Positions 1,799 to 29,046 of a DNA stretch of 29,069 bases are shown piece by piece (the first letter of the stretch is position 1; each line of letters opens with the position of its first letter). Under the pieces are notes generated by a model. It did no database searches. It saw nothing but the letters and a program-made list of their open reading frames with translations, and was not told the origin of the DNA. Made by a program: the position numbers and the translations under genes. The DNA comes from a virus, in IMG/VR virus record IMGVR_UViG_3300044655_000673, positions 1-29,069 of that record, one strand, 5' to 3'.

Positions 1799-1807
1799 TA
1801 TTTATAA
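1799..1807 (+). promoter_or_regulatory. Late-type promoter motif TATTTATAA (site A1)
   Basis: TATTTATAA fills most of the 16-base gap before the gene at 1811, with only 3 bases between motif and ATG. It is one of nine copies of [C/A]TATTTATA(A/C/T) sitting just upstream of + strand genes. No TTG or TTGACA-like box lies at -33/-35. With T4 late spacing, transcription would start at about 1812, on the ATG. Confidence 0.5.
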
Positions 1808-1810
1808 AAG

Positions 1811-2191
1811 ATGGATACCAAATTATTTAAAAAACTTATTAAAGAAGCCGTAAAGGAAGCTATCCAGGAAGAAATCAAAGACATCCTGTTAGAAGCAGTA
1901 CGTGCTCCTAAGACAGTTATTCAAGAAAGTTATGCCCCACCAGTTCAAACATTAACAAGCACACCAACCGTACCTACTGTTAATGCAAGAGGCAAATACA
2001 GAGAGCTACTAGGTGAAATGATGGAATCGAGAAATGGAAATATTTCAATGACCTCAAACGATGCTGTAAGCTTCGGTCAACAACCTGGATATAGACCACC
2101 TGTAAGTGCAAACACAACTGGAGAAGGATCTTCATTACCTCCCGGAGAGGTTAACTTAGACCAAATTATGGGTCTTATGAGTAAGAAATAA
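1811..2191 (+). CDS. Small conserved phage protein with charged N-terminal helix
   Basis: 126 residues. The first 30 form a highly charged amphipathic helix ('FKKLIKEAVKEAIQEEIKDI'); the remainder is Pro/Thr/Asn/Gly-rich and probably disordered, ending in a short Met-rich tail ('LDQIMGLMSKK'). There is no recognisable catalytic motif. It is the first gene after a late-type motif and its stop overlaps the gp25 start (TAATG), so it is probably co-expressed with the baseplate wedge genes. It could be a small structural or assembly factor; I do not recognise a family. Confidence 0.55.
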   Translation: MDTKLFKKLIKEAVKEAIQEEIKDILLEAVRAPKTVIQESYAPPVQTLTSTPTVPTVNARGKYRELLGEMMESRNGNISMTSNDAVSFGQQPGYRPPVSANTTGEGSSLPPGEVNLDQIMGLMSKK

Positions 2192-2601
2192 TGGCATACG
2201 GCGCTAGAAGAATATACCCTATTGATTTAGCTACTAGTAAAGCAGTAGGTGTGTCGCTGCCGTTTAACGGTAACGCCGTCTTCAAGCCCACCTATACTAC
2301 TAAAGAAGCAATAAAGACAAACCTCATTAATTTCCTATTAACAGGTCAAGGTGAGAGAGTTTTTAACCCTGGCTTCGGAGCAGGTTTACGGAAATTCGTA
2401 TTTCAACAAATTAGTACCCAAGGAGTATCAGAAATTGAAAATTATATTTTATCTGTTATAGAAAAATACTTTCCAAACATTCAAGGTGTAGTACAAATAC
2501 AGTCGACACCAGACCGGAATACAATTCTAATAACAATTACATATAGTATAGTAAATACTGGTATAAACGATACTGCACAAATAAATCTAAGCAATGGCTG
2601 A
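2191..2601 (+). CDS. 25: Baseplate wedge subunit, gp25/GPW family
   Basis: 136 residues, close to T4 gp25 (132). Gp25-like proteins join wedge subunits to the hub and initiate the tail sheath at the baseplate. The family core is visible: 'TKEAIKTNLINFLLTGQGER' followed by 'VFNPGFGAGLRKFVF' (the conserved ER...P.FG..L segment, about residues 47-72), then a helix/strand C-terminal half ending in 'TILITITYSIVNTGINDTAQ'. The start ATG shares its A with the preceding stop, and the end overlaps the gp6-like gene by 8 bases. The gp25-gp6 order is the usual one in T4-like phages. Confidence 0.88.
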   Translation: MAYGARRIYPIDLATSKAVGVSLPFNGNAVFKPTYTTKEAIKTNLINFLLTGQGERVFNPGFGAGLRKFVFQQISTQGVSEIENYILSVIEKYFPNIQGVVQIQSTPDRNTILITITYSIVNTGINDTAQINLSNG

Positions 2602-4453
2602 AAATAAAGATATAAAATATTTTAATAGGGATTTTGCAGGGTTGAGGAACCTCCTTGTTGATTTTTCCAAAACCTACTTCCCTAACACCTATAACGACTT
2701 CTCTCCATCATCTCCCGGGATGATGTTTATGGAAATGTCTGCGTATGTAGGTGATGTATTATCATTTTACCTAGATAACCAAATACAAGAAACCTACCTA
2801 CAGTATGCAAAGCAATCTACAAGTCTTTATACACTAGCTTATATGTTAGGGTATAGACCTAAAGTAACCAAAGCTGCAACTGTTGATATTGATTTCTACC
2901 AACAAGTACCCTCTAAGCTATCCGGAAGTGTATACATTCCAGATTTAGATTACGCATTACTATTTGCTCAAAATACTCAACTTAAATCATCAACAGGAGA
3001 TAATTATTTCCTAGTTCAAGATCCAATTGATTTTTCTTCTTCAAGCTCTTTCGACCCTACTGAAACAACAGTTTATCAAATTTCTGCAGGAGCACCACAG
3101 TACTACCTTCTTAAGAAATCAAGAAAGGGTATTTCCGGGCAAATTCAAACAACTACATATAATTTTGCAGCACCTGAAGCATTTGCAACAGTTACTCTTC
3201 AAAATACAGACATTATTCAAATTCTAGATATAACTGACTCAGACGGCAATGTATGGTACGAGGTACCTTATTTAGGGCAAGAGATGGTTTATGTTCCGAT
3301 TAGGAATACAAATACTAATGATCCTAACTACTACAGTGACAGTGATGCTCCATACTTAATGCAGTTAGAAAAAATACAAAGAAGATTTACTACTAGATTT
3401 ACATCAGAAAACACTTTAGAGATTCAATTCGGATCAGGCACTACCAACGATGTAGATGAAGTTATAACACCAAATCCGAACAACGTAGGTTTAGGATTAC
3501 CTTACGAGCAATCTAAGCTAACAACTGCATTCGACCCCACTAACTTCTTATATACAGATACTTACGGTATTGCCCCTGCAAATACAACTTTGACAGTTAG
3601 GTACTTAGTAGGCGGCGGTATTGCTGCAAACGTAGAAGCAAGCACACTGACTAGTTTTGTTAATACAACGAACATTAATTTTATTAACAACAATTTAAAT
3701 ACAACTACCGCAAATTATATCTTTAGTACTCTTGCTGTGAATAACCCTAGAGCTGCTTCCGGCGGAGGTGATGGAGACACTCTAGAAGAGATTAGACAAA
3801 ATACTCTAGTTGCCTACCAATCACAATTGAGAAACGTAACTCCCAACGACTATCTGATTAGAGCGTTATCAATGCCTTCAAATTACGGATCCGTAGCGAA
3901 AGCCTTTGTTCAGCCAGTTAAAGCTTCTGAAACTACCCTACCCGGTCAGATCCCAACAACATTAAACCTGTATGTGCTAGGCTACAACGCAAACGGATAC
4001 CTAACCCAGGTTTCCCATACAGTAAAGCAAAACCTAAGTACTTATCTTTCAGAGTATAGAATAGCAGGAGACACTGTAACTATCAAAGATGGATATGTAA
4101 TCAATATCGGATGTGATTTTGAAATCGTAGTTAGACCGAACTTTATTAGTAGCGAAGTGTTACTAAGTTGCCTGTCGGAGTTAAAAAGCTTCTTTAAGAC
4201 TGAGAATTGGCAATTTAACCAGCCAATCATACTAAAAGATCTTTTTATTCTTCTCGATAAAGTCTCCGGAGTGCAGACAGTAAAATCTGTTACAATCTCA
4301 AATAAAACAGGGATTAGTCAAGGATATTCTGAGTTTGCATACGATACTACTATCGCCACACAGGGGAATGTTATCTATCCTTCTATTGATCCTATGATCT
4401 TCGAAGTTAAATATCCAGACACAGATATTAAAGGTAGAGTAGTTTCTCTATAA
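2594..4453 (+). CDS. 6: Baseplate wedge protein, gp6/baseplate J-like
   Basis: 619 residues; T4 gp6 has 660. Gp6 homologues form the ring of dimers that links wedges around the hub and changes shape when the tail contracts. Visible hallmarks are the N-terminal segment 'YFNRDFAGLRNLLVDFSKTY', then 'FSPSSPGMMFMEMSAYVGDV' and 'LSFYLDNQIQETYLQYAKQS' (residues 10-75), typical of T4-like gp6, and the J-like region around residues 385-430 ('AASGGGDGDTLEEIRQNTLV', then 'TPNDYLIRALSMPSNYGSVA'). The C-terminal third has the usual alpha/beta module ('NIGCDFEIVVRPNFISSEVL'). It starts inside the gp25 gene (8-base overlap), consistent with translational coupling. Confidence 0.88.
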   Translation: MAENKDIKYFNRDFAGLRNLLVDFSKTYFPNTYNDFSPSSPGMMFMEMSAYVGDVLSFYLDNQIQETYLQYAKQSTSLYTLAYMLGYRPKVTKAATVDIDFYQQVPSKLSGSVYIPDLDYALLFAQNTQLKSSTGDNYFLVQDPIDFSSSSSFDPTETTVYQISAGAPQYYLLKKSRKGISGQIQTTTYNFAAPEAFATVTLQNTDIIQILDITDSDGNVWYEVPYLGQEMVYVPIRNTNTNDPNYYSDSDAPYLMQLEKIQRRFTTRFTSENTLEIQFGSGTTNDVDEVITPNPNNVGLGLPYEQSKLTTAFDPTNFLYTDTYGIAPANTTLTVRYLVGGGIAANVEASTLTSFVNTTNINFINNNLNTTTANYIFSTLAVNNPRAASGGGDGDTLEEIRQNTLVAYQSQLRNVTPNDYLIRALSMPSNYGSVAKAFVQPVKASETTLPGQIPTTLNLYVLGYNANGYLTQVSHTVKQNLSTYLSEYRIAGDTVTIKDGYVINIGCDFEIVVRPNFISSEVLLSCLSELKSFFKTENWQFNQPIILKDLFILLDKVSGVQTVKSVTISNKTGISQGYSEFAYDTTIATQGNVIYPSIDPMIFEVKYPDTDIKGRVVSL

Positions 4454-4457
4454 TTCA

Positions 4458-4466
4458 TATTTATAA
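4458..4466 (+). promoter_or_regulatory. Late-type promoter motif TATTTATAA (site A2)
   Basis: The 16-base gap between 4454 and 4469 contains ATATTTATAA ending 3 bases before the ATG at 4470, the same geometry as sites A1, A6 and A9. T4-like spacing predicts transcription start at about 4471. Confidence 0.5.
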
Positions 4467-4469
4467 CAA

Positions 4470-5573
4470 ATGGCTGTTTACAAACTCTTCCCAGAGAAAG
4501 ACGCTACCCTGTATAGCGAATACCCGGCAATGAATACCGGGATAGATGAAATTATAGAAGCAACCACCGCTGTGGCTGTAGACGGCTCTCCCGCTGTAAG
4601 TAGATTTTTAGTACAGTTCAATCAGAGTCAAATTCAAGATGTCCTTCAAAATAGAGTTAGCGGTTCTTTAGCCGTATACTTTAGAACCTCAATGGCGAAG
4701 GTGACAGGGTTAGCAGAAGAGGTAACTTTATATAATTACGCAGTATCTGGATCTTGGCAAAACGGAACAGGTAAGTACTTAGACTCACCTCAGACTCAAA
4801 ATGGAGTTAGTTGGAAATACAAAACAAGCTCTGGTTCAGGAGCCTGGGCACTTTCAAGTTTCGGAGCAACAGGTGCTACCGCATCATATACCGCCGGGTA
4901 TGAAGGAGGAGGAAACTGGTACACTAGCTCTACTTATATTCAAACTGCTTCTTTACAGTATAGAAGTGATTTTGACCTATCATTTAACGTAACAAATACA
5001 GTTCTAGCTTGGTACAGCGGTTCAATCGTCAATAATGGATTTATCATTAAACAGTCTGACTCTGACGAATTTAACGTAGATAAAACAGCTGAACTAAAAT
5101 ATTTCTCAGTAGATACAAATACAATCTACCCTCCACAGTTAGAATTTAGATGGGCCGACTACACTTTTAATACCGGATCATCAACACAGACATTTGTAAC
5201 ATCTTCCGACGTCGTAGTTACACTACCTAACAACACACAACAGTATCTCCCCCAAGCAATTCAAAGATTTAGAGTAAATGCTAGACCTCAATTTCCACCT
5301 AGAATATTTACAACCTCTTCTTTCTATACAACAAACTGCTACCTACCCACAGCTTCATACTGGGCTTTAAAAGATTTAGATACTGACGAAATCGTTATTG
5401 ATTTTGATACTGAGTATACAAAGATTAGCGCAGATTCAGACAGCAACTACTTTGATGTATATATGGATGGGTTAGAACCTGAGAGATATTACAAGATCCT
5501 TATAAAAACCCTTATCGGGGGAACTACTCAAGTATTGGATAATAGCTACTACTTCAAAGTTGTAAATGGATAA
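4470..5573 (+). CDS. Beta-rich virion structural protein with DNRLRE-like N-terminal domain
   Basis: 367 residues, no signal peptide. The N-terminus 'MAVYKLFPEKDATLYSEYPA' plus 'NTGIDEIIEA' and 'SRFLVQFNQSQI' matches the pattern of DNRLRE-type beta-sandwich modules (aspartate, 'N.G', a repeated L.rF strand). The middle is rich in Ser/Thr/Gly/Tyr/Trp, like phage fibre or wedge proteins. The C-terminal 100 residues look like an Ig/Fn3-like sandwich ('YFDVYMDGLEPERYYKILIK'). Immediately downstream of gp6, and first gene of a motif-led unit with the two following genes (TAATG junctions), it is probably a peripheral baseplate or fibre-attachment protein. The DNRLRE link is pattern-based. Confidence 0.6.
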   Translation: MAVYKLFPEKDATLYSEYPAMNTGIDEIIEATTAVAVDGSPAVSRFLVQFNQSQIQDVLQNRVSGSLAVYFRTSMAKVTGLAEEVTLYNYAVSGSWQNGTGKYLDSPQTQNGVSWKYKTSSGSGAWALSSFGATGATASYTAGYEGGGNWYTSSTYIQTASLQYRSDFDLSFNVTNTVLAWYSGSIVNNGFIIKQSDSDEFNVDKTAELKYFSVDTNTIYPPQLEFRWADYTFNTGSSTQTFVTSSDVVVTLPNNTQQYLPQAIQRFRVNARPQFPPRIFTTSSFYTTNCYLPTASYWALKDLDTDEIVIDFDTEYTKISADSDSNYFDVYMDGLEPERYYKILIKTLIGGTTQVLDNSYYFKVVNG

Positions 5574-5923
5574 TGGTCGAAACAATTAACATAGAGGTCC
5601 TAAAGTATAATAAAGCAGAGCTAACAAGAACTGTCAATACTCAATTTACACAATTTGGAGTTACTGCCTCTGCCGACCAACCACCAGTAGCAGACACAAT
5701 CACTATTCCAGAATTCTTCTCAGCTTATCAAAACTTATTTTACACCATCCCTAAATACGGAGAAACCAACTCACACGAGTACCTAGTGAAAACTAGTGGA
5801 GATTATATTGGAGGTGAAGCGGTCAACGAGGAGGTACAGGCGTTGCAGCAAGAAATTACACAATTAAGACAAGAGAATTTGGATTTACAACAATCATTAC
5901 TTAACTTACAAACACCGCAATAA
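5573..5923 (+). CDS. Small tail protein with C-terminal coiled coil
   Basis: 116 residues, start ATG overlapping the previous stop (TAATG). The N-terminal 75 residues form a compact alpha/beta domain. The last 30 ('EEVQALQQEITQLRQENLDL', then 'QQSLLNLQ') show a clear leucine heptad pattern, so the protein probably trimerises or dimerises, or binds a coiled-coil partner. Flanked by beta-rich tail proteins with one-base overlaps on both sides, it is most simply an adaptor or chaperone for the large tail protein that follows. No family recognised. Confidence 0.6.
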   Translation: MVETINIEVLKYNKAELTRTVNTQFTQFGVTASADQPPVADTITIPEFFSAYQNLFYTIPKYGETNSHEYLVKTSGDYIGGEAVNEEVQALQQEITQLRQENLDLQQSLLNLQTPQ

Positions 5924-8900
5924 TGTCTACTCCTTCAGTACTTCCTATTATCCCATTAAATACTCAAGGTCAGGAATTAACTCCTGTAGATGAAGTCAGT
6001 GTATCTAGTATTAGCGTAACCAGTAAATACAATGTAGACACTGATTATATCAAAGCGTACCTGTATGACATAAACGACAACCTAATAGGCGGGCTAACAA
6101 CCAACTACTCTATTACTAGCGGTAAAATATCCGGAAGTACCTCCACACAGATAAATCTAGATCCAGCACAAGATCTTGCCTCAAACAACTACACTCAAGG
6201 AACCTATAAGGTTAATTACAACTTCCTTAGTAGTCTAATCTCAGGAGCTCCCTCTTTTAATATTACTGAGACCTCTTCAGATAGAACTGAGTTACGAGTT
6301 TCCAATTCAAGCTTAAGCTCTAGCGAGTTACAAGCAGTCGCCACCACACTAACTAACTTTTTAAATAGCACAGAAACTTTCCAAGGTTTTGATTTAGATT
6401 TTGGTAACGACATTATACTACTTGTAACTAACGTAGGTTTTGACGGAACAGCAATCCTAATTAAGCTATATCAACCACTCCCAACCAATCTAGGACTAAG
6501 ATCTTCTTTCTTTTTTGTTGAAAAAAAATCAGAACCCGTTGCATTTATATTAGAGTATCCACAAGAAGAATTAGAAGCTCCTGAGCAGATCTTCCTAAAA
6601 GGTCCTAATCTCAACATTCAACTACAGCAAGAGAGTAATACCTCGACAGGGTTTCAAACACTAGATTCAATTTACAGTAGTTCGGATATAGACCTTACCA
6701 ATCAACTAAACAGTATATTAGTAGAGAGAAGAGCAGAGTTAAATACAGACTATTCCGATTTTATAAACTTTATATTTTTCAGTTCAGCAGAACAGCGGCT
6801 AATAAACTTCTACGATAAAGCATCTTTAATTGAGAATTACAACAATCAAATTGCAAGCTTAAACACTATTGCAAATACTACAGAAGCATCTTCAAGTAAG
6901 GCAATATATCAAACTAAAATTAACGATCTAATCACTAACTTTGACGGTTATGATTATTATTTATATTTCGATTCATCATCTCAAAGCTGGCCAAAATCAA
7001 ACTCAACCCCACCTTATACCCTGTATTCTACCGGATCAACCGAAGTATTAACCTGGTACTCCGAACTACTAGATAGTGGCTCTCTATACGACGAACGTAA
7101 TCCAAACTACATCTACAACATCTACCCACAGTACATAACTGAAGATATCGATAACGATCAATTCAAGCTATTTAATGAAATGGTAGCTCAGATGTTTGAT
7201 CAGATCTGGCTATACACCCAAGCAATTGAAAATAGACAAGACGGAGATAATAGACTTTCAGAAGGTATTTCAATTGATCTAGCAGCCGATGCTCTTAGAT
7301 CTTACGGTATAACTCTATACGAAAGTAATTTAAGTAATAACGATCTTTACACTACCTACCTAGGAATTAATCCAGCGGGCGGTACCCTACCTCCAACTGG
7401 TAGTGAATTAATAACAAACTACGTTACTGCATCTGCAGAAACAACTCCATTTAACGACGCTCAAAAATTAGTTTATAAAAGATTGTATCACAACTTACCT
7501 TACTTATTAAAGAAAAAAGGTACGGTTGCAGGATTACAATTACTTATTGACTGCTTTGGAGTACCTGATACAATCCTAAGAATTAACGAATTTGGAGGAA
7601 AAGATAAGAACCCAAGAACATGGGACCAGTGGCAGAATTCTTTTGACTACAGTTTCTATGCAACAGGATCAACTTTTGTATCATCATCTTGGGCATTAAA
7701 CACACTTTGGAACTCCTTAGATGATGTACCGCAGGCAGTTGAGTTTAGATTCAAGACTGACAGCCTTCCTACAAATACAGCTACCATTGCTTCTCAAAGT
7801 TTATGGACTACCGACACAGGTGTAGGAACAGGAGTCGGAGTTGCTTTACGTTATAACGGATCTGGATACACTAGCGGATCATATTCAGGGTCAGTAGTTA
7901 ATCCCTATCAAAAATACGGATACTTAGATTTCTACCCTAATATTGCAGATAGTTCAACTACCTGTAGTGTGTACCTACCGTTCTTTGACGGAGGTTGGTG
8001 GTCTGTAATGGTAAATAAAGATAACGGAGGAAGTTCAACAACCTTCCAATTAATTGCCAAAAATAACATCTACACCGGTGCTGATAGTAATATTCTAGGC
8101 TTCCAAGCTTCTGCCTCGGTAGTAGGTAATGATGGTGATTGGAATTCAACTCAACAATCTTACTTGGCAACTTCATCACTTGCAGGACCTGCATTCACAG
8201 GTTCACTACAGGAGTGGAGGTACTACGCAACACAGTCCACTCAAGATACTTTTGATGCTTATGTAATGAATCCAGCCTCCATTGAGCAGAGCCAATACCT
8301 AGCATTTAGAGCAACTCTAGGAGGAGAACTATATACCGGATCATCATCAGTACATCCGAAAGTTTCTGGTGTTCAAGCAGCAACATCTTCTTTTGCATCA
8401 ACAAGTAACTTCTACTATAAAGGTACACCTCTATTTGTTCCTAACAATGAAGTCGTCTTTTACGACCAAGTATTAGGGGGTATTAAAAATATAGTATCCA
8501 ACAAAGTTAAATTAGGAGAGTCTACTGTTTACGGAAAAGTATTATCAGGACTAGCTTCACTACAGCAAAACTATCCTGCATCTCAAAGCTATACCAGCGA
8601 TGTTAACTATATGGAGGTTGGTTTCTCACCAGCTAACGAAATTAACGAAGATATAAACTCTCAGTTTGGATACATTAATATCGGAGAGTATATTGGAGAT
8701 CCTAGATTTATTTCTCAATCTTCTTATACTTACCCTGAATTAAATACATTAAGCTTTGATTACTTTAAGAAATATGGAAGTTCTTATGACCTACAAGATT
8801 ACTTTAGGTTAATAAAATACTTCGATAATTCACTATTTAAAATGATTAAAGACTTCGTACCTGCTAGAGCTTCTGTAGCAACCGGTGCGATCGTTAAGCA

Positions 8901-10401: not shown

Positions 10402-10408
10402 AATTACA

Positions 10409-10417
10409 TATTTATAA
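10409..10417 (+). promoter_or_regulatory. Late-type promoter motif TATTTATAA (site A3)
   Basis: ATATTTATAA in the 22-base gap before the gene at 10424, ending 6 bases before the ATG. T4-like spacing puts transcription start at about 10422, a leader of about 2 bases. No -35-like box upstream. Confidence 0.48.
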
Positions 10418-10423
10418 TAAATC

Positions 10424-11080: not shown

Positions 11081-11088
11081 TAAGCAAA

Positions 11089-12087: not shown

Positions 12088-12092
12088 AATGA

Positions 12093-13067: not shown

Positions 13068-13072
13068 AATTT

Positions 13073-13522
13073 ATGCCTAATTGGTTTTACGAAAATAAAG
13101 AAGTTACAGAAGAATATCAATTTGAAGACAAAGCAGTCGGATTTGTATATATGATAACAAATATTGAGACTGGTAAGTTTTACATTGGTAGAAAAGTGTT
13201 TACTAACACCTTAACTAAAAAACTCACAAAGAAAGAAATTTCTGAACAATCCGGCCCTGGAAGGAAGCCTACTAAAAAGAAAGTGAGTAAGGAATCTAAT
13301 TGGAGAGAGTATTGGGGTTCATGTAGACCACTACTTGCAGAAGTTAAGGAGGTTGGTGAAGATAAATTTAAAAGGGAGATTTTAAAGTTGTGTTTTACAA
13401 AAAAACAACTAACTTATTATGAAATCGCTTACCAGTGTAAATACGATGTACTTGAAACAAATTCATACAACGACAACATTATGTCCAGAATTTTCCGAAA
13501 AGACTTGCACCTACCCGATTAA
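13073..13522 (+). CDS. GIY-YIG nuclease-like phage protein
   Basis: 149 residues. 'FVYMITN' (24-30) and 'KFYIGRK' (35-41) form a variant GIY-YIG core, with a probable catalytic glutamate at E117 in 'YYEIAY' and a basic middle (residues 46-75). The insert and 'W..Y.GSC' segment (77-84) match a GIY-YIG-like family that is widespread in large myoviruses and is usually not a free-standing homing endonuclease. It may act in DNA processing or recombination or on host DNA; the substrate is unknown. It is 5 bases downstream of a structural gene and just upstream of the primase, so it may be transcribed with the tail genes. The first motif tyrosine is kept (VYM), supporting activity. Confidence 0.7.
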   Translation: MPNWFYENKEVTEEYQFEDKAVGFVYMITNIETGKFYIGRKVFTNTLTKKLTKKEISEQSGPGRKPTKKKVSKESNWREYWGSCRPLLAEVKEVGEDKFKREILKLCFTKKQLTYYEIAYQCKYDVLETNSYNDNIMSRIFRKDLHLPD

Positions 13523-13535
13523 GTTCGTATATTCG
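13505..13535 (+). promoter_or_regulatory. Bacteroidota-type promoter, TTG-N20-TATATTCG (site B1)
   Basis: TTG at 13505-13507, a 20-base spacer, then TATATTCG at 13528-13535, 4 bases before the primase ATG. TATATTCG matches the Bacteroidota -7 consensus TAnnTTTG at all but one fixed position, and the spacer suits the known -33 TTG. Transcription would begin on or beside the ATG. The -33 part lies inside the 3' end of the preceding gene. Confidence 0.5.
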
Positions 13536-13539
13536 GTTA

Positions 13540-15257: not shown

Positions 15258-15258
15258 C

Positions 15259-15267
15259 TATTTATAA
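15259..15267 (+). promoter_or_regulatory. Late-type promoter motif TATTTATAA (site A4)
   Basis: CTATTTATAA in the 20-base gap after the nuclease gene, 10 bases before the ATG at 15278. T4-like spacing gives transcription start at about 15272 and a leader of about 6 bases. A second partial TATTATAA follows at 15270-15277. Confidence 0.48.
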
Positions 15268-15277
15268 AATATTATAA

Positions 15278-15967: not shown

Positions 15968-15977
15968 AATAAATTCA

Positions 15978-15985
15978 TATCTTTA
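15978..15985 (+). promoter_or_regulatory. Weak TAnnTTTG-type -7 element, TATCTTTA (site B3)
   Basis: TATCTTTA (then G) in the 24-base gap, 6 bases before the ATG at 15992. It matches TAnnTTTG except for the last base. No TTG is found 19-21 bases upstream, so this site is weaker than those at 13528 and 19456. The equal distance to the ATG is the main support. Confidence 0.3.
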
Positions 15986-15991
15986 GCAAGC

Positions 15992-16597: not shown

Positions 16598-16598
16598 T

Positions 16599-17168: not shown

Positions 17169-17171
17169 AGC

Positions 17172-17180
17172 TATTTATCA
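17172..17180 (+). promoter_or_regulatory. Late-type promoter motif variant TATTTATCA (site A5)
   Basis: CTATTTATCA in the 14-base gap before the gene at 17183; the octamer TATTTATC differs from the majority in its last base. It ends 2 bases before the ATG, so T4-like spacing places transcription start about 2 bases inside the codon region (17185). Confidence 0.42.
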
Positions 17181-17182
17181 AT

Positions 17183-17827: not shown

Positions 17828-17831
17828 CACA

Positions 17832-18923: not shown

Positions 18924-18927
18924 GATA

Positions 18928-19428: not shown

Positions 19429-19432
19429 TAAG

Positions 19433-19463
19433 TTGCTATTTTAAAAAAAAGTTTTTATATTTA
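19433..19463 (+). promoter_or_regulatory. Bacteroidota-type promoter, TTG-N20-TATATTTA (site B2)
   Basis: TTG at 19433-19435, exactly 20 bases, then TATATTTA at 19456-19463, within the largest intergenic gap of the window (41 bases), ending 6 bases before the phosphoesterase ATG. Spacer length is identical to the site before the primase. The spacer includes a run of eight A residues. The match to TAnnTTTG lacks only the final G. Transcription would start close to the ATG. Confidence 0.52.
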
Positions 19464-19469
19464 CTATAC

Positions 19470-20564: not shown

Positions 20565-20569
20565 TATTG

Positions 20570-21196: not shown

Positions 21197-21197
21197 C

Positions 21198-21206
21198 TAT
21201 TTATAA
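21198..21206 (+). promoter_or_regulatory. Late-type promoter motif TATTTATAA (site A6)
   Basis: CTATTTATAA starts 2 bases after the preceding stop codon and ends 3 bases before the ATG at 21210, filling a 13-base gap almost entirely. Same motif-to-ATG distance as A1, A2 and A9. Confidence 0.5.
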
Positions 21207-21209
21207 CAT

Positions 21210-22205: not shown

Positions 22206-22206
22206 T

Positions 22207-22647
22207 ATGGAAAACCTAGAACTTCTTATAAGGAAAGTCTTAGAAGAGCGCAGTCTTAGAGACTGGGTCAAAGAGAAGTGGGTACGTATTGATTCCGACG
22301 GTGATATTGCCGGTGCTTGTGGAACTTCAAAGAATAAACAGAGACCGGACAGATGCTTACCTCAATCTAAAGCACAATCACTATCTAAATCTGAGAGAGC
22401 AGCTACTGCACAGAAAAAGAAAAAAGCTTCCGGGCAATTCGTTTCAAATACTAAAAAAGCAAGAGTAACTGAGATTCTACAGATACTAGAATCAGAATAC
22501 ACACCAACTAATAAAAAATTATGGTCTAGAGCTAAGTCTGCTGCTAGAGCAAAGTTTGATAAATATCCATCAGCCCTCGCTAACTTATGGGCCTCTAAAT
22601 GGTATAAGGAAAAAGGCGGAAGCTGGAAAAAAAAGAAAAAGAAATGA
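22207..22647 (+). CDS. Small basic protein with two conserved phage modules
   Basis: 146 residues, very Lys/Arg/Ser-rich, ATG one base after the previous stop. Module 1 (about 17-70): 'LRDWVKEKWVRIDSDGDIAG', 'ACGTSKNKQRPDRCLPQSKA', with paired cysteines C37 and C49. Module 2 (about 104-146): 'KLWSRAKSAARAKFDKYPSA' followed by 'LANLWASKWYKEKGGSWKKK'. Both are patterns I recall as stand-alone or fused domains in T4-like and jumbo phages. The C-terminus is a poly-Lys tail. High basicity suggests DNA binding or an internal head protein. It overlaps the next gene by ATGA. Confidence 0.58.
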   Translation: MENLELLIRKVLEERSLRDWVKEKWVRIDSDGDIAGACGTSKNKQRPDRCLPQSKAQSLSKSERAATAQKKKKASGQFVSNTKKARVTEILQILESEYTPTNKKLWSRAKSAARAKFDKYPSALANLWASKWYKEKGGSWKKKKKK

Positions 22648-23078
22648 TTAACCTATTAGACATACTAAGCGAAGCAGAGATAGCAAAATGTCCTGCACCA
22701 ACTCAAAACATTGAGCTTAACCTTGAGAATAGGCAGAAGGCAATTAACGAGTACGGATACGGTCCATTAAATCCTAATGAACCTAATGAAAAATTCTGGC
22801 AAGCTAAGGTCGATATGTGGAAATTAGATTCTGCAGAAGAAGCTAAGAAGTCACTTTGTGGTAATTGTGCTGCATTTGACATTACAGAAAAAACTTTAGA
22901 CTGTATTGCTAAGGGTATAGGTGATGATGAAGGTTCTGAAGATCCTTTTGATGTTATTGAAGCCGGTCATTTAGGTTATTGCAGATTCTTAAAGTTTAAA
23001 TGTGCAGCTGCTAGAACTTGTGATGCTTGGGTTGTTGGTGGTCCAATAACAGACGAAAAAAATGATAAACAACCTTAA
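22644..23078 (+). CDS. Six-cysteine cluster protein, possibly Fe-S or zinc binding
   Basis: 144 residues, ATGA overlap with the previous gene. Six cysteines are spaced C72-x2-C75, C87, C113, C120 and C126 in 'LCGNCAAFDITEKTLDCIAK', 'GHLGYCRFLKFKCAAARTCD' and 'AWVVGGP'. The CGNC...GYC...C...C.AW arrangement recalls high-potential iron-sulfur (HiPIP-like) proteins, and I recall very similar proteins in other uncultivated marine phages. The N-terminus 'MINLLDILSEAEIAKC' contains an L-S-E site. No transmembrane or signal segment, so if it binds a cluster it does so in the cytoplasm or inside the virion. Cofactor identity is uncertain. Confidence 0.58.
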   Translation: MINLLDILSEAEIAKCPAPTQNIELNLENRQKAINEYGYGPLNPNEPNEKFWQAKVDMWKLDSAEEAKKSLCGNCAAFDITEKTLDCIAKGIGDDEGSEDPFDVIEAGHLGYCRFLKFKCAAARTCDAWVVGGPITDEKNDKQP

Positions 23079-23544
23079 AGAATGGTTTAGCCATTTAACT
23101 ATACCGAGACAGGAACTAAGTAACATGCCTATCTGCCCTTTCGCTAAGGCAGCTATTACTAATCAAGAATACACTGTCGAAGAAACAAACCTAGACGACA
23201 TAGCATTTCAGATAAGTAATGCTAACGTTCAAGTTTATAAAGTTTGTATCTTCTACCTACCTAATTACGAAATTTACGAAGTTGAAGCATTAGAGGCAAA
23301 AACTAAAATGCTCAATCGGAACTTTGTACATAACAACAAAGTAGTTTTAGACAGTGATCCAAGAAACCCTTTTACAATTAACGGAGTAACAACCACCTTT
23401 CCGGACTGCTATATTTGGATAGTTCAAGACCTAGCTGATTTGGTTTCTAAGTCAAACGGTCTTAAATTTACTGATTATTACAGTTACTGGACAAAAGAGC
23501 AATTAGACGAAGTTGTAACATGGAGAACCCCTACAGAGATTTAG
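23062..23544 (+). CDS. Uncharacterised phage protein with CPFA motif
   Basis: 160 residues, beginning 17 bases before the end of the preceding gene in another frame. 'MPICPFAKAAI' (residues 22-32) is a short cysteine motif followed by an alpha/beta domain with 'VYKVCIFYLPNYEIYEVEAL' and a C-terminal 'FPDCYIWIVQDLADL'. The 'P.CPFA..A' pattern occurs in small phage proteins next to Cys-cluster genes in my memory, with no assigned function. No membrane segment. It overlaps the following gene by 25 bases, so translation of the series is probably coupled. Confidence 0.5.
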   Translation: MINNLKEWFSHLTIPRQELSNMPICPFAKAAITNQEYTVEETNLDDIAFQISNANVQVYKVCIFYLPNYEIYEVEALEAKTKMLNRNFVHNNKVVLDSDPRNPFTINGVTTTFPDCYIWIVQDLADLVSKSNGLKFTDYYSYWTKEQLDEVVTWRTPTEI

Positions 23545-23783
23545 AAGTTACTAATGAGTATATCATTCGTGAGTTCGACGAAAATATTGATCCAATAGAA
23601 CTATTATGGCATCGAGATGATGAAGATAGAACCGTGGAGATACTTGGAGAAACAGATTGGCAAATACAGTTAGATAATAAGTTGCCATCTTCCTTAAATG
23701 AGTCTATATTTATAAAAAGACATGAGTGGCACCGAGTTATAAAAGGAACCGGAACACTTAAGTTAAAAATACACAAGTCATGA
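23520..23783 (+). CDS. Small cupin-like protein
   Basis: 87 residues. 'LLWHRDDEDRTVEIL', 'DWQIQLDNKLPSSL' and 'FIKRHEWHRVIKGTGTLKLK' give the two-histidine-motif pattern of a minimal cupin (WHRD...WHR). Small proteins of this pattern are frequent in T4-like phages and their role is unknown; a metal site may be formed by H31, the acidic run after it, H68 and H71. The start lies 25 bases inside the preceding gene and the end overlaps the next (ATGA). A TATTTATAA sequence occurs within the coding region at 23707-23715. Confidence 0.58.
   Translation: MENPYRDLEVTNEYIIREFDENIDPIELLWHRDDEDRTVEILGETDWQIQLDNKLPSSLNESIFIKRHEWHRVIKGTGTLKLKIHKS
23707..23715 (+). promoter_or_regulatory. Internal copy of the late-type motif TATTTATAA (inside the cupin-like gene)
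   Basis: An exact TATTTATAA lies within the 87-codon gene, 64 bases before the spanin-like gene at 23780. It differs from the other copies in being intragenic and farther from a start. It could drive the lysis and terminase genes, or be chance in A/T-rich coding sequence. Confidence 0.25.
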
Positions 23784-24118
23784 AACAAGCTATAATTTGG
23801 ATTATTGTCCTGGTTTTTGGTGGAGGGATTGTATACAGTCGCTTTTTTAAACCGACGGAGAAACTACCCGATGTTTCCATTTACGAAAGGAGAATCGATT
23901 CGCTAAACAACGAAATCAAAGCAAACAACATTAAAGTACAGCAATTAGACTCTATGGTCGATATCCAGAAGAGTAAAATTAATAAGCTAGAAAATAAGTT
24001 AAGTAAAACCGCAGCAGAAGCTGCTAGAGAACAAAAAGAACATGAAGAAGATCTTAAGCGTATTAGTGCTATGTCTAATAGCGATGTCGCCGCTTTATTC
24101 TCAGAAAGCTTCAAGTGA
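23780..24118 (+). CDS. Inner-membrane spanin-like protein (i-spanin candidate)
   Basis: 112 residues. One N-terminal membrane segment (about 4-21, 'AIIWIIVLVFGGGIVYSRFF') is followed by an almost continuous charged coiled coil (about 35-100, 'RIDSLNNEIKANNIKVQQLD', 'KSKINKLENKLSKTAAEAAR'), so the body lies in the periplasm. This N-in, single-pass, coiled-coil layout is that of Rz-type i-spanins, which with an outer-membrane partner fuse inner and outer membranes during lysis. The following gene begins inside its 3' end in another frame, the classic overlapped spanin arrangement. Sequence alone cannot exclude another membrane-anchored coiled-coil protein. Confidence 0.6.
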   Translation: MKQAIIWIIVLVFGGGIVYSRFFKPTEKLPDVSIYERRIDSLNNEIKANNIKVQQLDSMVDIQKSKINKLENKLSKTAAEAAREQKEHEEDLKRISAMSNSDVAALFSESFK

Positions 24119-24446
24119 TACCTGCTGTGTACCTTGTGCTACTCTGAAGAAAGCCTTAGTGGTTAAACAAGAGAGAATTTACTGCGGAACTCAATTAGGG
24201 TTTGCCCGTGATTCTATTTCTAACCTACAGGAAATTATCTTATCTAAAGATACCATTATCTTGCATAGAGATAGTGCAATCGTTCTTTTTAAAGATAACG
24301 AAAAGAAATATAAAGAGGTTATTGACAATAAAGACTCAATCATAACAACTTACGGTAAAGAAATCGGTAAGCTGAAAGCAGCAAAGACTGGAGCTTATAT
24401 AGTTACAGGATTAACTATCTTACTAACTATCTTCTTCGGCCTATGA
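24042..24446 (+). CDS. Secreted, C-terminally membrane-anchored protein; candidate spanin partner
   Basis: 134 residues, starting within the i-spanin-like gene (77-base overlap, +1 frame). A signal peptide occupies residues 1-20 ('MKKILSVLVLCLIAMSPLYS') with likely cleavage before Q21, a common Bacteroidota pattern. There is no good lipobox, although C28, C29 and C32 ('TCCVPC') lie close to the mature N-terminus. The middle is helical with repeated Asp/Ser/Lys ('NDKDSII'-like elements), and residues 116-134 form a C-terminal membrane helix. It could be a partner for the preceding protein, or a unimolecular-type spanin lacking a standard lipobox. It ends with an ATGA overlap into the terminase gene. 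Confidence 0.58.
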   Translation: MKKILSVLVLCLIAMSPLYSQKASSDTCCVPCATLKKALVVKQERIYCGTQLGFARDSISNLQEIILSKDTIILHRDSAIVLFKDNEKKYKEVIDNKDSIITTYGKEIGKLKAAKTGAYIVTGLTILLTIFFGL

Positions 24447-26020
24447 GTCAACCAGATTTAAAAGCAGTTATAAGGCAGGAGTATGTAAAGTGCGTGGTAG
24501 ATCCCGTACACTTTATGAAGAAATACTGCTACATTCAACATCCACTGAGGGGTAGGATCTTATTTCACTTATATCCTTTTCAGGAAAAAGTACTGACTCA
24601 CTTCCAAGATAACCCGTATTCTATCATTTTAAAGTCAAGACAGTTAGGTATTTCGACTTTAGGAGCAGGATATGCACTATGGTTAATGCTTTTTCATAAG
24701 GATAAAAACGTTCTAACCCTTGCAACAACACAGGCAACTGCACGTAACTTGGTATCAAAAGTACAATTTATGTACGATAACTTACCTTCTTGGTTAAGAA
24801 TCGATGCACAAGAGAAGAATAAACTAAGTTTACGGCTGTCAAACGGGTCAAAAATCACAGCTAAATCATCAAATTCAGATGCTGCTCGTTCAGAAGCTGT
24901 ATCACTACTATTGATCGACGAGGCGGCGTTCATTGATAACATTGCCGAAACATGGGCATCAGCTCAACAGACGTTAGCAACAGGTGGTGGTGCGATTGTA
25001 CTATCAACTCCCTACGGAACTGGTAACTGGTTTCACCAAACCTGGGTTAGAGCTGAAGCAAAAGAGAATGAATTCCTACCAATTAAGTTACCTTGGTATG
25101 TTCACCCGGAAAGAAACCAGGTCTGGAGAGATGCTCAAGATAATCTACTAGGAGATCCACGACTTGCAGCACAGGAGTGTGATTGTGACTTTGCTACTTC
25201 TGGAGATACTGTTTTCTACGGAGAGTATTTAGAGTTCTACCAACAGACTTACATGAAAGATCCCATGGAAAGACGGGGTGCTGATATGAATTTATGGATA
25301 TGGGAGCCTGTTGACTACTCAAGAAGCTACATGGTAGTAGCGGACGTAGCAAGAGGTGATGGAAAAGACTATTCAACCTTTCATATCTTAGATATTGAAA
25401 ACAACACTCAGGTTGGAGAGTATAAAGGACAGTTAGGAACTAAGGAATTTGGTCATTTGCTAGTAGGTATAGCATCAGAATACAATCAAGCACTACTAGT
25501 AATTGAGAATGCATCGATAGGGTGGTCAACTATTCAGACCGTAATCGAGAGAGGTTATGATAACCTATATTATTCACCCAAGGGAGGTAACGTAACTGCC
25601 GATTCATACTTCGACCAATACGATCACAATTCGAATATGGTTGCAGGATTCTCTATGAATTCAAGAACTAGGCCTTTAGTAGTAGGTAAGTTCCAAGAAT
25701 ATGTTAATGAGAAAGCAGTTACTATTCAATCAAAACGTTTGATAGAGGAGATGAAAGTCTTTATTTGGAAGAATGGGAAAGCAGAAGCACAGGGTGGGTA
25801 TAACGATGACTTAGTAATGGCTTTTGGTATCGCTATGTACATTAGGGATACTGCTTTGAAATTTAGACAGCAAGGATTAGACTTAACACGAAACGCCTTA
25901 AATAATATCACAGTAACTAAACCATCCTACCAAGGGGTATACCTACCTTCTCACGTAGCTAATCCCTATGAGATCGACAATGGTAAAGGAGGAAAAGAAG
26001 ATATAAGCTGGATTTATTAA
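24443..26020 (+). CDS. 17: Large terminase subunit (gp17-like packaging ATPase/nuclease)
   Basis: 525 residues; T4 gp17 has 610. The ATPase domain shows a Walker A-like 'LKSRQLGIST' (about 63-72), Walker B 'LLLIDEAAF' with catalytic E160, and the coupling motif 'LSTPYG' (187-192). The RNase H-type nuclease domain has D301 ('VVADVARGDGKD'), E355 ('LLVIENASIGW') and the acidic pair D455/D456 ('GGYNDDLVMAFGIAM'). It cuts concatemeric DNA and drives it into the prohead through the portal encoded next. The start overlaps the preceding gene by ATGA. No small terminase gene is recognisable immediately upstream. Confidence 0.93.
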   Translation: MSQPDLKAVIRQEYVKCVVDPVHFMKKYCYIQHPLRGRILFHLYPFQEKVLTHFQDNPYSIILKSRQLGISTLGAGYALWLMLFHKDKNVLTLATTQATARNLVSKVQFMYDNLPSWLRIDAQEKNKLSLRLSNGSKITAKSSNSDAARSEAVSLLLIDEAAFIDNIAETWASAQQTLATGGGAIVLSTPYGTGNWFHQTWVRAEAKENEFLPIKLPWYVHPERNQVWRDAQDNLLGDPRLAAQECDCDFATSGDTVFYGEYLEFYQQTYMKDPMERRGADMNLWIWEPVDYSRSYMVVADVARGDGKDYSTFHILDIENNTQVGEYKGQLGTKEFGHLLVGIASEYNQALLVIENASIGWSTIQTVIERGYDNLYYSPKGGNVTADSYFDQYDHNSNMVAGFSMNSRTRPLVVGKFQEYVNEKAVTIQSKRLIEEMKVFIWKNGKAEAQGGYNDDLVMAFGIAMYIRDTALKFRQQGLDLTRNALNNITVTKPSYQGVYLPSHVANPYEIDNGKGGKEDISWIY

Positions 26021-26021
26021 C

Positions 26022-26030
26022 TATTTATAC
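26022..26030 (+). promoter_or_regulatory. Late-type promoter motif TATTTATAC (site A7)
   Basis: CTATTTATAC begins right after the terminase stop codon, 18 bases before the portal ATG at 26049. T4-like spacing would start transcription at about 26035, giving a leader of about 14 bases, the longest of the set. Confidence 0.45.
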
Positions 26031-26048
26031 TTATATTAACACTACACA

Positions 26049-27935
26049 ATGGCTGATACCAGTATATTTTCGAGATTACGTAGATTATTTTCTACAGATG
26101 TTATTATCCGGAACGTCGGTGGGGATCAGTTAAAAGTAGCTGATACTAACCAAATTCAGATGTCGGGAGAGTTAGAAAATAACTCTTTGATGGCTAGATA
26201 CAATAGAATCTACACAACATCACCTACATCTCTTTACGGATACCAATCTTCTTTTAACTATCAAACACTAAGAACCCAGTTATATTCTGAATATGATGCA
26301 ATGGATACAGATGCAATTATTGCTTCTGCCCTTGATATTCTTTCAGAAGAATCTACTCTTAAGAATGATATGGGAGAAGTTCTTCACATCAGATCAAACG
26401 ATGAGAATATTCAAAAAATTCTCTACAACTTATTCTACGATGTATTGAACGTTGAGTTTAACTTGAGTTGGTGGATTAGAAACATGTGTAAGTATGGAGA
26501 CTTCTTTTTGAAATTAGAAGCTTCAGAAAAATACGGTGTTTATAATGTAATTCCTTTCGCTGCATTTAACATTGAAAGACAAGAGCATTATGATCCAGAA
26601 AATCCAACTGCTGTTAGATTTAGATACGATCCTGATGGACTAGCTGCTGATACTTATGGATATTTTAAGACTCCAAATCAGAATGATGCCAAGTCAATCT
26701 ACTTTGATAACTACGAAGTAGCTCACTTCCGTCTACTAACAGATGTTAACTTCCTTCCATATGGCCGTTCATACATCGAACCTGCTCGGAAACTATTCAA
26801 GCAATACACCTTGATGGAAGATGCGATGTTGGTTCACAGAATTGTAAGAGCTCCTGAGAAGCGTATTTTCTATATGAACGTAGGTGGTATTCCTCCTGCA
26901 GAAGTAGAGAACTTTATGCAGAAGGCTATCTCTAAAATGAAGCGTACTCCTTATATTGACCAAACTACTGGTGAATACAATTTAAAGTACAACATGCAAA
27001 ACTTAATGGAGGATTTCTATATCCCCATGAGAGGTAATGACACATCAACTAAGATTGAGACTTTAGGAGGATTACAGTATGACGGTATCACAGACGTAAA
27101 TTACCTAAGAGATAAGTTATTTGCTGCATTAAGAATCCCTAAAGCATTCCTCGGCTATGATGAAAAGCTACAAGGTAAAGCAACTCTTGCTGCCGAAGAT
27201 ATTCGCTTTGGTAGAACGGTTGAAAAAATCCAAAGGATTATGGTTTCTGAACTGTATAAGATTGCTTTTGTTCACTTATACATTCAGGGCTACAGAGACG
27301 AATCACTAACTAACTTCGAATTGTCATTAACAACTCCTTCTATCATTTACGATCAGGAAAGAGTAATGTTATTAAAAGAAAAGATGGAGCTAGCTCAAAC
27401 AATGATGGATTCTCAATTAATTTCTTCTGATTGGATCTACGATAACATCTTCCACTTGAGCTCTGATGAATATGAAGAGATGAGAGAGTTGGTTAAAGAA
27501 GATGCTAAACGTAAATTTAGGTTATCTCAGATTGAAAACGAAGGAAACGATCCTTTAGAAACCGGAGAGACTTACGGTACTCCTCACGACATCGCTACAT
27601 CGTACGGTAAAGGTAGAGTTTACGATAGACCAGGTGCAGTACCTGCTGGATACGACAGAGACCAGCCTGTTATAGGACGCCCAGAAGAAAAAGCTTCAAA
27701 CATTAACACCACTAACGATCCTTTAGGGTTAGATAGGTTAGGTAGAAAAGCAATGAAGACCGATGACCAACAGGGTTACGGAAGAGACAATACATCACCG
27801 TTTGCATTAGAATCAACTAAAAAAGAATTTACGAAACACAAAAAAATTCTTGATAGCTTGACACCGAAAAGAATGATTTTTGAATCAGAAAGAAAAGCAA
27901 ATGGTTTATTAGACGAGAGTCAAATTAGGGAATAA
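26049..27935 (+). CDS. 20: Portal protein (gp20-like)
   Basis: 628 residues; T4 gp20 has 524. Homologues form the dodecameric ring at the special vertex through which DNA is packaged and ejected. The conserved core is evident: 'EYDAMDTDAIIASALDILSE' (about 83-102), 'NLSWWIRNMCKYGDFFLKLE' (about 139-158), 'GRSYIEPARKLFKQYTLMED' then 'AMLVHRIVRAPEKRIFYMNV' and 'PKAFLGYDEKLQGKATLAAE' (about 361-380), typical of T4-type portals. The extra length is a C-terminal tail of about 110 residues, polar and Gly/Asp/Arg-rich, probably flexible. It follows the terminase with a 28-base gap, the order usual for this group. Confidence 0.92.
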   Translation: MADTSIFSRLRRLFSTDVIIRNVGGDQLKVADTNQIQMSGELENNSLMARYNRIYTTSPTSLYGYQSSFNYQTLRTQLYSEYDAMDTDAIIASALDILSEESTLKNDMGEVLHIRSNDENIQKILYNLFYDVLNVEFNLSWWIRNMCKYGDFFLKLEASEKYGVYNVIPFAAFNIERQEHYDPENPTAVRFRYDPDGLAADTYGYFKTPNQNDAKSIYFDNYEVAHFRLLTDVNFLPYGRSYIEPARKLFKQYTLMEDAMLVHRIVRAPEKRIFYMNVGGIPPAEVENFMQKAISKMKRTPYIDQTTGEYNLKYNMQNLMEDFYIPMRGNDTSTKIETLGGLQYDGITDVNYLRDKLFAALRIPKAFLGYDEKLQGKATLAAEDIRFGRTVEKIQRIMVSELYKIAFVHLYIQGYRDESLTNFELSLTTPSIIYDQERVMLLKEKMELAQTMMDSQLISSDWIYDNIFHLSSDEYEEMRELVKEDAKRKFRLSQIENEGNDPLETGETYGTPHDIATSYGKGRVYDRPGAVPAGYDRDQPVIGRPEEKASNINTTNDPLGLDRLGRKAMKTDDQQGYGRDNTSPFALESTKKEFTKHKKILDSLTPKRMIFESERKANGLLDESQIRE

Positions 27936-27947
27936 ACTTTTAACATA

Positions 27948-27956
27948 TATTTATTA
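27948..27956 (+). promoter_or_regulatory. Late-type promoter motif TATTTATTA (site A8)
   Basis: ATATTTATTA within the 36-base gap after the portal gene, 15 bases before the ATG at 27972. The octamer TATTTATT differs from the majority in its last base. Predicted leader about 11 bases. Confidence 0.42.
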
Positions 27957-27971
27957 AAAAACCATCGATAG

Positions 27972-28805
27972 ATGTCAATAAAACATTCAAAATTTAGAAA
28001 TACAGGACTTCTTTTTGAACTTCTGGTAAGACAGATCACCTCTGATACGTTAGAAGGTAAGAATTCTGCCGCTATCAATATTCTTAAAAAGTATTTCGTT
28101 AACACTGAATTAGGGAAGGAATATAAACTTTACGAGCAAGTTACAGCTTATAAAAATCTAAGCGAAGGCAAAGCTGAAATGGTTGTTAACACTCTAGTAG
28201 AAGCATCTACCAAGTTAAAAAGATCTGAGATCAGAAAGCAAAAATATAACTTAGTTAAAGAAATTAAAGATAACTACAGTGTAGAAAAATTCTTTAAAGC
28301 TAAAGTTACTAATTACAAAGTATTTGCAGCTCTAAACAACCTAATCGAAAATCAATCTTCAGAAAAAGTAGCTCCTGAGACGGTAATTAATAATAAACTT
28401 ACAATCCTTGAACACTTAACGAAAACTCCTGTAGCAGCTCCTGCTGATGAATTAATGGAGGAATATAAAGGGTATGGAAAAGATATTAGAATCTTAACAT
28501 ACAAAATGCTTCTTGAAAAATTTAATGAGAAGTATGATCACTTGACAGTGAAACAGAAAGAGGTTTTAAGAGAGGTAATTACCTCAGTAGATAATACAGA
28601 CAAGTTAAAAGAGTATTATAATACAAGAATCGTCGAAGTACAACAACTACTCCAGGAAAAAACCAGTGAGATTAGTGACGAAGTACTTAAGATTAAAATC
28701 ACAGAAGTTCTTAAGTATGTAACACCTCTAGAGAAAACAGAAAAAGTTACCAACGATGCAATCATTAACTTGTTACAGTACTACGAACTTGTTAATGAAT
28801 TATAA
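27972..28805 (+). CDS. Conserved helical protein downstream of portal
   Basis: 277 residues, Lys/Glu-rich and nearly all helical ('RNTGLLFELLVRQITSDTLE', 'KAEMVVNTLVEASTKLKRSE', 'FKAKVTNYKVFAALNNLIEN'). The 'FRNTGLLFELLVRQ' start is one I recall from uncultivated T4-like phages in the same place, between portal and the prohead protease/scaffold genes, with no assigned function. Position and helicity suggest a scaffold, core or head-assembly factor; this is inference. It ends with a TAATG junction into the next small gene, so the two are probably translated together. Confidence 0.6.
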   Translation: MSIKHSKFRNTGLLFELLVRQITSDTLEGKNSAAINILKKYFVNTELGKEYKLYEQVTAYKNLSEGKAEMVVNTLVEASTKLKRSEIRKQKYNLVKEIKDNYSVEKFFKAKVTNYKVFAALNNLIENQSSEKVAPETVINNKLTILEHLTKTPVAAPADELMEEYKGYGKDIRILTYKMLLEKFNEKYDHLTVKQKEVLREVITSVDNTDKLKEYYNTRIVEVQQLLQEKTSEISDEVLKIKITEVLKYVTPLEKTEKVTNDAIINLLQYYELVNEL

Positions 28806-29029
28806 TGGCCACCAGACAGCAGCTAAAAGACGAGCTTAGGAAGCAACTCAAAGAGGTATCAACCTCTGCAGCAGCTGGCGGCTACAATACCCTCCCTGCT
28901 TTTAATCCAAACAAGAATGCCCAAGGTACTTCACGTAATTACTACTTGAAGATGGGCTGGAAATTAGTTAATAAAGCTAAAACCAGGAAAGCAGCTAAAG
29001 GTATGGAGTATAAAGATCTTTGGAAATAA
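28805..29029 (+). CDS. Small basic conserved phage protein
   Basis: 74 residues, Lys/Arg-rich. 'ATRQQLKDELRKQLKEVSTS' is a charged helix; 'FNPNKNAQGTSRNYYLKMGW' and 'KLVNKAKTRKAAKGMEYKDL' form a conserved basic tail, which I recall as a small stand-alone protein beside head genes in large phages. No cysteines, no membrane segment. It may be an internal head or core protein like those near T4 genes 67/68, judged by location only. The start shares its A with the previous stop. Confidence 0.55.
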   Translation: MATRQQLKDELRKQLKEVSTSAAAGGYNTLPAFNPNKNAQGTSRNYYLKMGWKLVNKAKTRKAAKGMEYKDLWK

Positions 29030-29037
29030 ACAATACC

Positions 29038-29046
29038 TATTTATAA
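29038..29046 (+). promoter_or_regulatory. Late-type promoter motif TATTTATAA (site A9)
   Basis: CTATTTATAACATATG at 29037-29052: the motif ends 3 bases before the ATG at 29050. The 16 bases of motif plus spacer plus ATG are identical to those at site A6 (21197-21212), although the two genes are unrelated. Confidence 0.5.

Follow-up and report, generated by a model that had tools for sequence, protein, structure and literature searches.

We analysed a viral DNA of 29,069 bases, IMG/VR record IMGVR_UViG_3300044655_000673, taken at its full length and referred to below as the window, in whose intergenic gaps the octamer TATTTATA recurs. All of its called genes (32/32) lie on the + strand; gene calls came from a simple script that takes the longest ATG-initiated open reading frame, not from a trained caller. 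PHROGs annotation recognizes a baseplate wedge gene (2594), a primase (13540), exonucleases (14463 and 19470), a terminase (24443) and a portal gene (26049), and a Pfam scan of eight window proteins gave no matches. The nearest isolate in the phage collection is the Flavobacterium phage immuto (160 kb, complete), with identities of 63% for the terminase and 59% for the portal protein, and one IMG/VR contig (loci L009 and L162) is 98–99% identical to the window across the compared stretches. By analogy with phage T4, TATTTATA is likely to be a late-type promoter box of T4-like phages related to immuto, which a gp55-like sigma factor of the phage would read.

Exact TATTTATA occurs nine times on the + strand of the window, whereas its reverse complement, TATAAATA, is absent from that strand. 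Seven of these copies lie in gaps between genes, two further gaps hold a one-base variant, and at all nine gap sites the base 5′ of the octamer is A or C. Together with three gaps that carry a TAnnTT element, these sites account for all 12 gaps of at least 13 bases, and the genes that overlap or touch their upstream neighbour have no box. An earlier note, made from the window's letters, had located the nine sites correctly, and its description of the preceding base, of the gaps and of the genes lacking the motif agrees with the sequence. It mentioned neither the absence of the reverse complement nor the two exact copies inside genes (6958 and 23707), the second of which, shared with G001 and G002 (two related records), probably reflects coding constraint. 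It had also described the octamer as differing from the T4 late box at positions 4–5, and missed that the octamer is the exact reverse complement of that box. The signal of TATTTATA is one of position and strand, not of overall count: with one mismatch allowed, 75 occurrences were found across the whole window against 86.4 expected, which is no excess.

We compared the gaps with 300 approximate dinucleotide shuffles, the window's last open gap being left out. In the window, immuto, G001 and G002 (the four genomes used for gap and spacing statistics), the gaps hold 6, 26, 34 and 30 exact copies, against shuffled means of 0.2, 2.1, 1.4 and 0.9 and shuffled maxima of 2, 7, 6 and 4, respectively. 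Among 56 octamers of the same composition, TATTTATA ranks first in the gaps of the window, G001 and G002, and second in immuto. We rejected chance or composition as the explanation, because the gap copies exceed 300 of 300 shuffles and the octamer takes the top ranks among those of its composition. The totals on the + and − strands are 30/15 in immuto, 45/6 in G001 and 36/8 in G002; they are 4/25 in G003 and 0/21 in G004, in both of which the portal gene lies on the contig's reverse strand. The count on both strands of related genomes that the earlier note had called for thus gives a strand bias together with a gap excess in immuto, G001 and G002. Its rule that every sizeable gap holds a motif is true of the window but not of the relatives, where the exact octamer is found in 25 of 102 (immuto), 33 of 105 (G001) and 28 of 66 (G002) gaps of at least 13 bases. 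Mel-JY01 (PP395634), which is recorded as a Microcystis phage and groups with these phages, has 7 gap boxes against 0.7 expected in 39 kb; among six further selected loci, the counts of two (L083 and L073) were not above their largest shuffle.

The same orientation is seen in a wider set of 156 of 160 fetched loci, from which the other four were removed as lying in G001 or G002, and whose gaps make up 85,257 of about 1.4 million bases (coding ~94%). Here 238 distinct sites precede a start by no more than 60 nt, compared with 66 located in coding sequence and 43 in the opposite orientation, so that the octamer is not as frequent within genes or in antisense as ahead of starts; of 46 noncoding copies in the opposite orientation, 34 touch or overlap one in the sense orientation. 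Of the 156 loci, 116 have one or more upstream sites. Ahead of the portal gene (79 of 80 loci used, a partial one being left out; 61 distinct upstreams after short or duplicate ones were dropped), the exact box is found in 42 and a one-base change in 4 more. In those 46 the distance from box to ATG runs from 3 to 27 nt, and the flanks change while the box is kept.

At the 96 gap sites of the four genomes, A or C directly precedes the box in 98%, and an A stands five bases after it in 88%. The position relative to starts, which the earlier note had proposed to examine, has a spike: the box lies 4 nt from the ATG at 27 of the 96 sites, never at 2, 3, 5 or 6 nt, and at 7–36 nt in 56 (distance counts exclude sites without a downstream start). 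Among sites at distances other than 4, those no more than 40 nt from the start have A at +5 in 50 of 57 cases, one of the 57 being at distance 1, and those farther away in 7 of 12; in-gene copies have it in 5 of 23. No column upstream of the box is strongly conserved in these genomes, and a TTG at −33 accompanies TATTTATA at 5 of 85 sites (20 of 238 in the wider set), in keeping with the earlier remark that a −35/−33 box is missing. The extended box is [A/C]TATTTATA-WNWW-A. Its variable distance to the ATG, the A or C before it, the usual A at +5 and the rarity of a −33 TTG make it look like a promoter box rather than a ribosome site. RNA most likely starts on or near the A five bases after the box, which would place the box at −12 to −5. 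As the ATG falls on that A at 27 of the 96 sites, leaderless late mRNAs are predicted. Leaderless mRNAs are reported to form 5.5% of the mapped mRNAs of Flavobacterium psychrophilum (PMC9723704), and a leader longer than 10 nt is given for 87% of predicted F. johnsoniae transcripts (PMC6847099).

The three window gaps with the TAnnTTyr element look, from their sequence, like members of a second, host-type class (TTG-N20-TAHHTTTA) and not like weak copies of TATTTATA; the TTG is present in two of them, ahead of the primase and repair-exonuclease genes (Table 1). TAHHTTTAG is preceded by TTG 22–24 bases upstream in 53 of 60 cases versus 5 of 85 for TATTTATA (Fisher p 8e-26), and is a closer match to the Bacteroidota primary-sigma promoter than TATTTATA is. 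Its sites cluster at about 60–76 kb in immuto, 88–96 kb in G001 and 34–40 kb in G002, with some outside. In immuto, where genes were classed by annotation names and those of one operon are not independent, TATTTATA is the closest upstream element for 23 of 24 structural and lysis genes and the second class for 1 of 24, as expected from the earlier note, which had put the box ahead of structural genes. TATTTATA lies at most 70 nt from the start in 8 of these 24 genes versus 0 of 29 metabolic genes. For this comparison the second class was defined more widely (37 sites, 3 of which coincide with TATTTATA two bases on).

Some further observations were made on the second class and on the neighbouring genes. 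TTG-N20-TAHHTTTAGG is repeated before many small genes in the same three intervals (locus L090 in immuto). In G001 and G002, but not in immuto, the second-class box often has an ATG 3 nt after it, with possibly leaderless mRNA. For the window gene at 13073–13522, the top PHROG match is NAD synthetase and weaker ones are homing endonucleases; the top name may mislead.

Table 1. Boxes and promoter-like elements located in the window
Feature	Position	Strand	Context
TATTTATA box	1799..1806	+	4 nt before ATG 1811
TATTTATA box	4458..4465	+	4 nt before ATG 4470
TATTTATA box	10409..10416	+	7 nt before ATG 10424
TATTTATA box	15259..15266	+	11 nt before ATG 15278
Variant box TATTTATC (one base changed)	17172..17179	+	3 nt before ATG 17183
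TATTTATA box	21198..21205	+	4 nt before ATG 21210
TATTTATA box	26022..26029	+	19 nt before portal ATG 26049
Variant box TATTTATT (one base changed)	27948..27955	+	16 nt before ATG 27972
TATTTATA box	29038..29045	+	4 nt before ATG 29050; frame open at window end
Exact TATTTATA within gene	6958..6965	+	probably coding, not promoter
Exact TATTTATA within gene	23707..23714	+	recurs in matching gene of G001 (129275) and G002 (72980)
TTG-N20-TATATTCG element	13505..13535	+	before primase ATG 13540; read from sequence
TATCTTTA(G) element	15978..15985	+	before ATG 15992; no TTG at −33
TTG-N20-TATATTTA element	19433..19463	+	before exonuclease ATG 19470; read from sequence

The earlier note had suggested searching the rest of the genome for gp55, and the relatives do encode a protein with a gp55-like sigma region 2. 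Immuto gp118 and its relatives are about 240–250 amino acids long and are annotated as hypothetical in the immuto and Mel-JY01 records. Their likeness to gp55 in sigma region 2, as judged from sequence profiles and a structure model, is weak but consistent. phrog_234, the gp55 family, matches G002 (E 6.8e-5) and immuto (E 0.008), two of six related records, and is found in 18 of 19 members of the protein family at E up to 1 (best 1.4e-4); Pfam Sigma70_r2 likewise matches 18 of the 19 with the same E limit (best 2.8e-5). hhalign of the family against nine gp55 proteins gave E 6.8e-5 and a probability of 63%, and in a search with the family profile six of the nine passed the inclusion threshold (E 1.9e-6 to 0.005), with T4 gp55 at 0.019. 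phrog_12791 had no match in the six records. Solved gp55 (7d7c_F; for the structure see PMC7892883) is second among the best 50 VIA-align matches of the model (Z 9.6 over 109 residues, 4.6 Å); these 50 are sigma-factor entries as far as their titles tell, and such Z values can be common among helical folds. Foldseek against viral models gave two matches with E <0.001, a Bacillus phage sigma and an entry without a name. Unlike T4 gp55, the protein is some 60 residues longer and has a C-terminal domain (the last 96 residues) that is very conserved and modelled with a predicted local distance difference test score (pLDDT) of 86; it has no clear match among solved structures, its best VIA Z being 5.5 and not to sigma factors. 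A single match to an anti-CRISPR protein (E 0.07, profile search of solved structures) was taken as chance.

The sigma-like genes of immuto, G001 and G002 are syntenic: each lies before the baseplate cluster, with TATTTATA directly after it. The near-identical IMG/VR contig carries the gene too: its end lies 662 bases upstream of where the window begins, and TATTTATA again comes after it. Among IMG/VR candidate stretches, 403 of 410 carry a gene for a related protein, and in the annotated phage collection a relative is found in six records only, namely four of immuto, Mel-JY01 and LR756508. The sigma profile matches 8 of 11 records and none of G003, G004 and G007, which may be fragments. A second, ECF-like (extracytoplasmic function) sigma gene was seen in G001 (87367–87903) and G002 (35690–36247), and was not detected in immuto.

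A homologue is also present in Rhodothermus phage RM378, of which 124,650 of 129,908 bases were examined. Rm378p020, annotated as hypothetical, matches the family profile with E 6.3e-15 among RM378 reading frames; the gp55 profile search misses it (E 0.8), and phrog_234 misses both RM378 and LR756508. RM378 has ~5% noncoding bases and genes on both strands, and no TATTTATA was found in the gaps before its starts. Of the 57 TATTTAA copies in RM378, however, 32 precede a start on the same strand by at most 60 nt; the longer TATTTAAA is placed this way in 21 of 33 cases, and the reverse complement of TATTTAAA in 10 of 33. RM378 thus resembles the immuto group in the TATTTA core, its sense orientation, its closeness to the ATG and the presence of a homologue of the sigma-like protein, and differs in that the box is TTATTTAA(A) and that its first T most commonly lies 13, not 12, bases before the ATG.

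We compared the box with known systems. T4 late transcription (gp55, gp33 and gp45, acting at TATAAATA) likewise has a single box near the start, no −35 element, structural genes behind it and a gp55-like protein. Here, however, the box is the reverse complement, and its inferred register is one base closer to the start, the T4 box being described as beginning at −13 (PMC2988020). A gp45 match is found in one of the six related records (G003) and a gp44 match in two (G003 and Mel-JY01), so that gp45 as part of a T4-type set, which the earlier note had proposed to look for, was not generally found; the clamp was not seen in immuto, G001, G002, G004 or Mel-JY01. Neither phrog_223 nor T4 gp44 has a match in immuto (complete), G001 or G002, where a very divergent clamp could escape such searches. 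Clamp activation, a hallmark of T4, may therefore be lacking in part of the group. Replication sets differ as well, with gp44 and gp45 in G003 and a full family-A polymerase in immuto, G001 and G002. The idea of a gp55-type late promoter thus survives in its promoter-like character, the missing −33 element, the structural genes and the gp55-like protein, but not in box orientation, register or a regular clamp. T4-like cyanophages, whose late box is given as NATAAATA (PMC2984593), also have an in silico box before T4-type late genes and a gp55 homologue, with the core in the opposite sense, TAAATA as against TATTTA here.

We propose that TATTTATA acts as the single recognition box of late-type promoters, to which the gp55-like sigma (immuto gp118 and its relatives) most likely brings the host RNA polymerase core without a −33 contact. 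RNA would most likely begin at the A five bases past the box. An ATG exactly four bases past the box would make its own A the start and the mRNA leaderless, other spacings would give a leader of a few to ~30 nt, and genes of the early module would use the other, host-type class, TTG-N20-TAHHTTTA.

Several observations weigh against this proposal. The link between the sigma-like protein and the box comes from their co-occurrence and from analogy, and LR756508 encodes a homologue (35.7%), yet the gaps of its examined 41.6 kb lack TATTTATA. phrog_234 misses G001 and, at E up to 10, also has matches in 7 of 14 control genomes; Sigma70_r2 scores lie near the cut-off of 24 (26 bits in G002, 23.5 in G001, none in immuto); the full-length structure model is weak (mean pLDDT 65), and Foldseek against the PDB gave no match with E <0.001, although nearly all of the 50 matches listed are from sigma-factor entries. 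The box itself is less regular in the wider set, where 45 of 238 sites lie 4 nt from the ATG beside 11 at 3, 8 at 5 and 4 at 6 nt, and among the 193 sites at distances other than 4 the +5 base is A 138 times and T 48 times. There, the second class has the TTG in only 9 of 28 sites, which, set against 20 of 238 for TATTTATA, makes the contrast between the two classes weaker. No upstream gap copy is present in 40 of the 156 loci, and 15 of the 61 portal upstreams have no box even with one mismatch. Finally, TATTTATA is also the closest element for 12 of 29 immuto metabolic genes (second class 16, none 1).

It is possible that the host primary sigma reads the box as a variant −7 element, with the help of a phage activator or a modified polymerase, and that the sigma-like protein serves other promoters. 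The Flavobacterium −7 box, TAHHTTTG at −12 to −5 (PMC6847099), occupies the same register as inferred here, and TATTTATA has TAHHT and one further T in common with it; the presence of the sigma-like protein without the box in LR756508 would also fit. However, compared with the Bacteroidota primary-sigma promoter (TTTG / TAHHTTTG at −33/−7), TATTTATA has the 5′ TA in the same inferred register, but A replaces T at −7 and G at −5, and the −33 element is absent. The TTG occurs at only 5 of 85 TATTTATA sites, while 53 of 60 sites of the phage's own second class combine the two host-like elements, and the two classes are distributed separately over early and structural genes. We therefore consider reading by the host sigma unlikely.

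The spike at exactly 4 nt before the ATG would also be expected of an A/T-rich, non-Shine-Dalgarno signal for translation initiation at a fixed distance. By eye (not counted), a Shine-Dalgarno sequence is not apparent before the printed window starts, and upstream A residues are reported to help initiation in Flavobacterium (PMC6847099). Yet the distance is not 4 nt at 69 of the 96 sites, with 56 at 7–36 nt, overlapping or touching genes have no box, and ahead of portal genes the box sequence is kept over distances of 3 to 27 nt. Because of this variation we rejected a translation element, very improbable in our judgement, as the main explanation. The exact complementarity to TATAAATA might instead point to true T4 late promoters on the opposite strand that give antisense transcripts, and some T4 sites are described as transcribed on both strands (PMC2988020). 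This was likewise rejected as the main explanation and seems scarcely credible, as the position is tied to the sense ATG and the sense-strand A, nearly all called genes lie on one strand, and in RM378 TATTTAAA is found sense-upstream 21 times versus 10 for its reverse complement. We therefore favour, as likely, a late-type box that is read by the phage's gp55-like sigma and is presumably active late in infection. More tentatively, and with some doubt, the immuto group and RM378 may share an old late system of their own, with a long gp55-like sigma carrying its own C-terminal domain, a TATTTA-core box in the host −7 register, no T4 clamp in those members whose polymerase is of family A, and many leaderless late mRNAs in hosts where such transcripts are uncommon.

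The finding is real and makes functional sense as a late-type box resembling, though not identical to, that of the T4 system, for which a dedicated sigma is plausible. Among the matches listed from titles and abstracts of the open-licence literature, there was no earlier report of the TATTTATA box. The finding would make late genes recognizable from sequence and offer a candidate late sigma in a common, poorly annotated phage group, and helps to separate early from late transcription units in raw contigs. It predicts leaderless late mRNAs for these phages, and raises the testable question of whether gp55-type late transcription can operate without the T4 clamp, on a different host polymerase.

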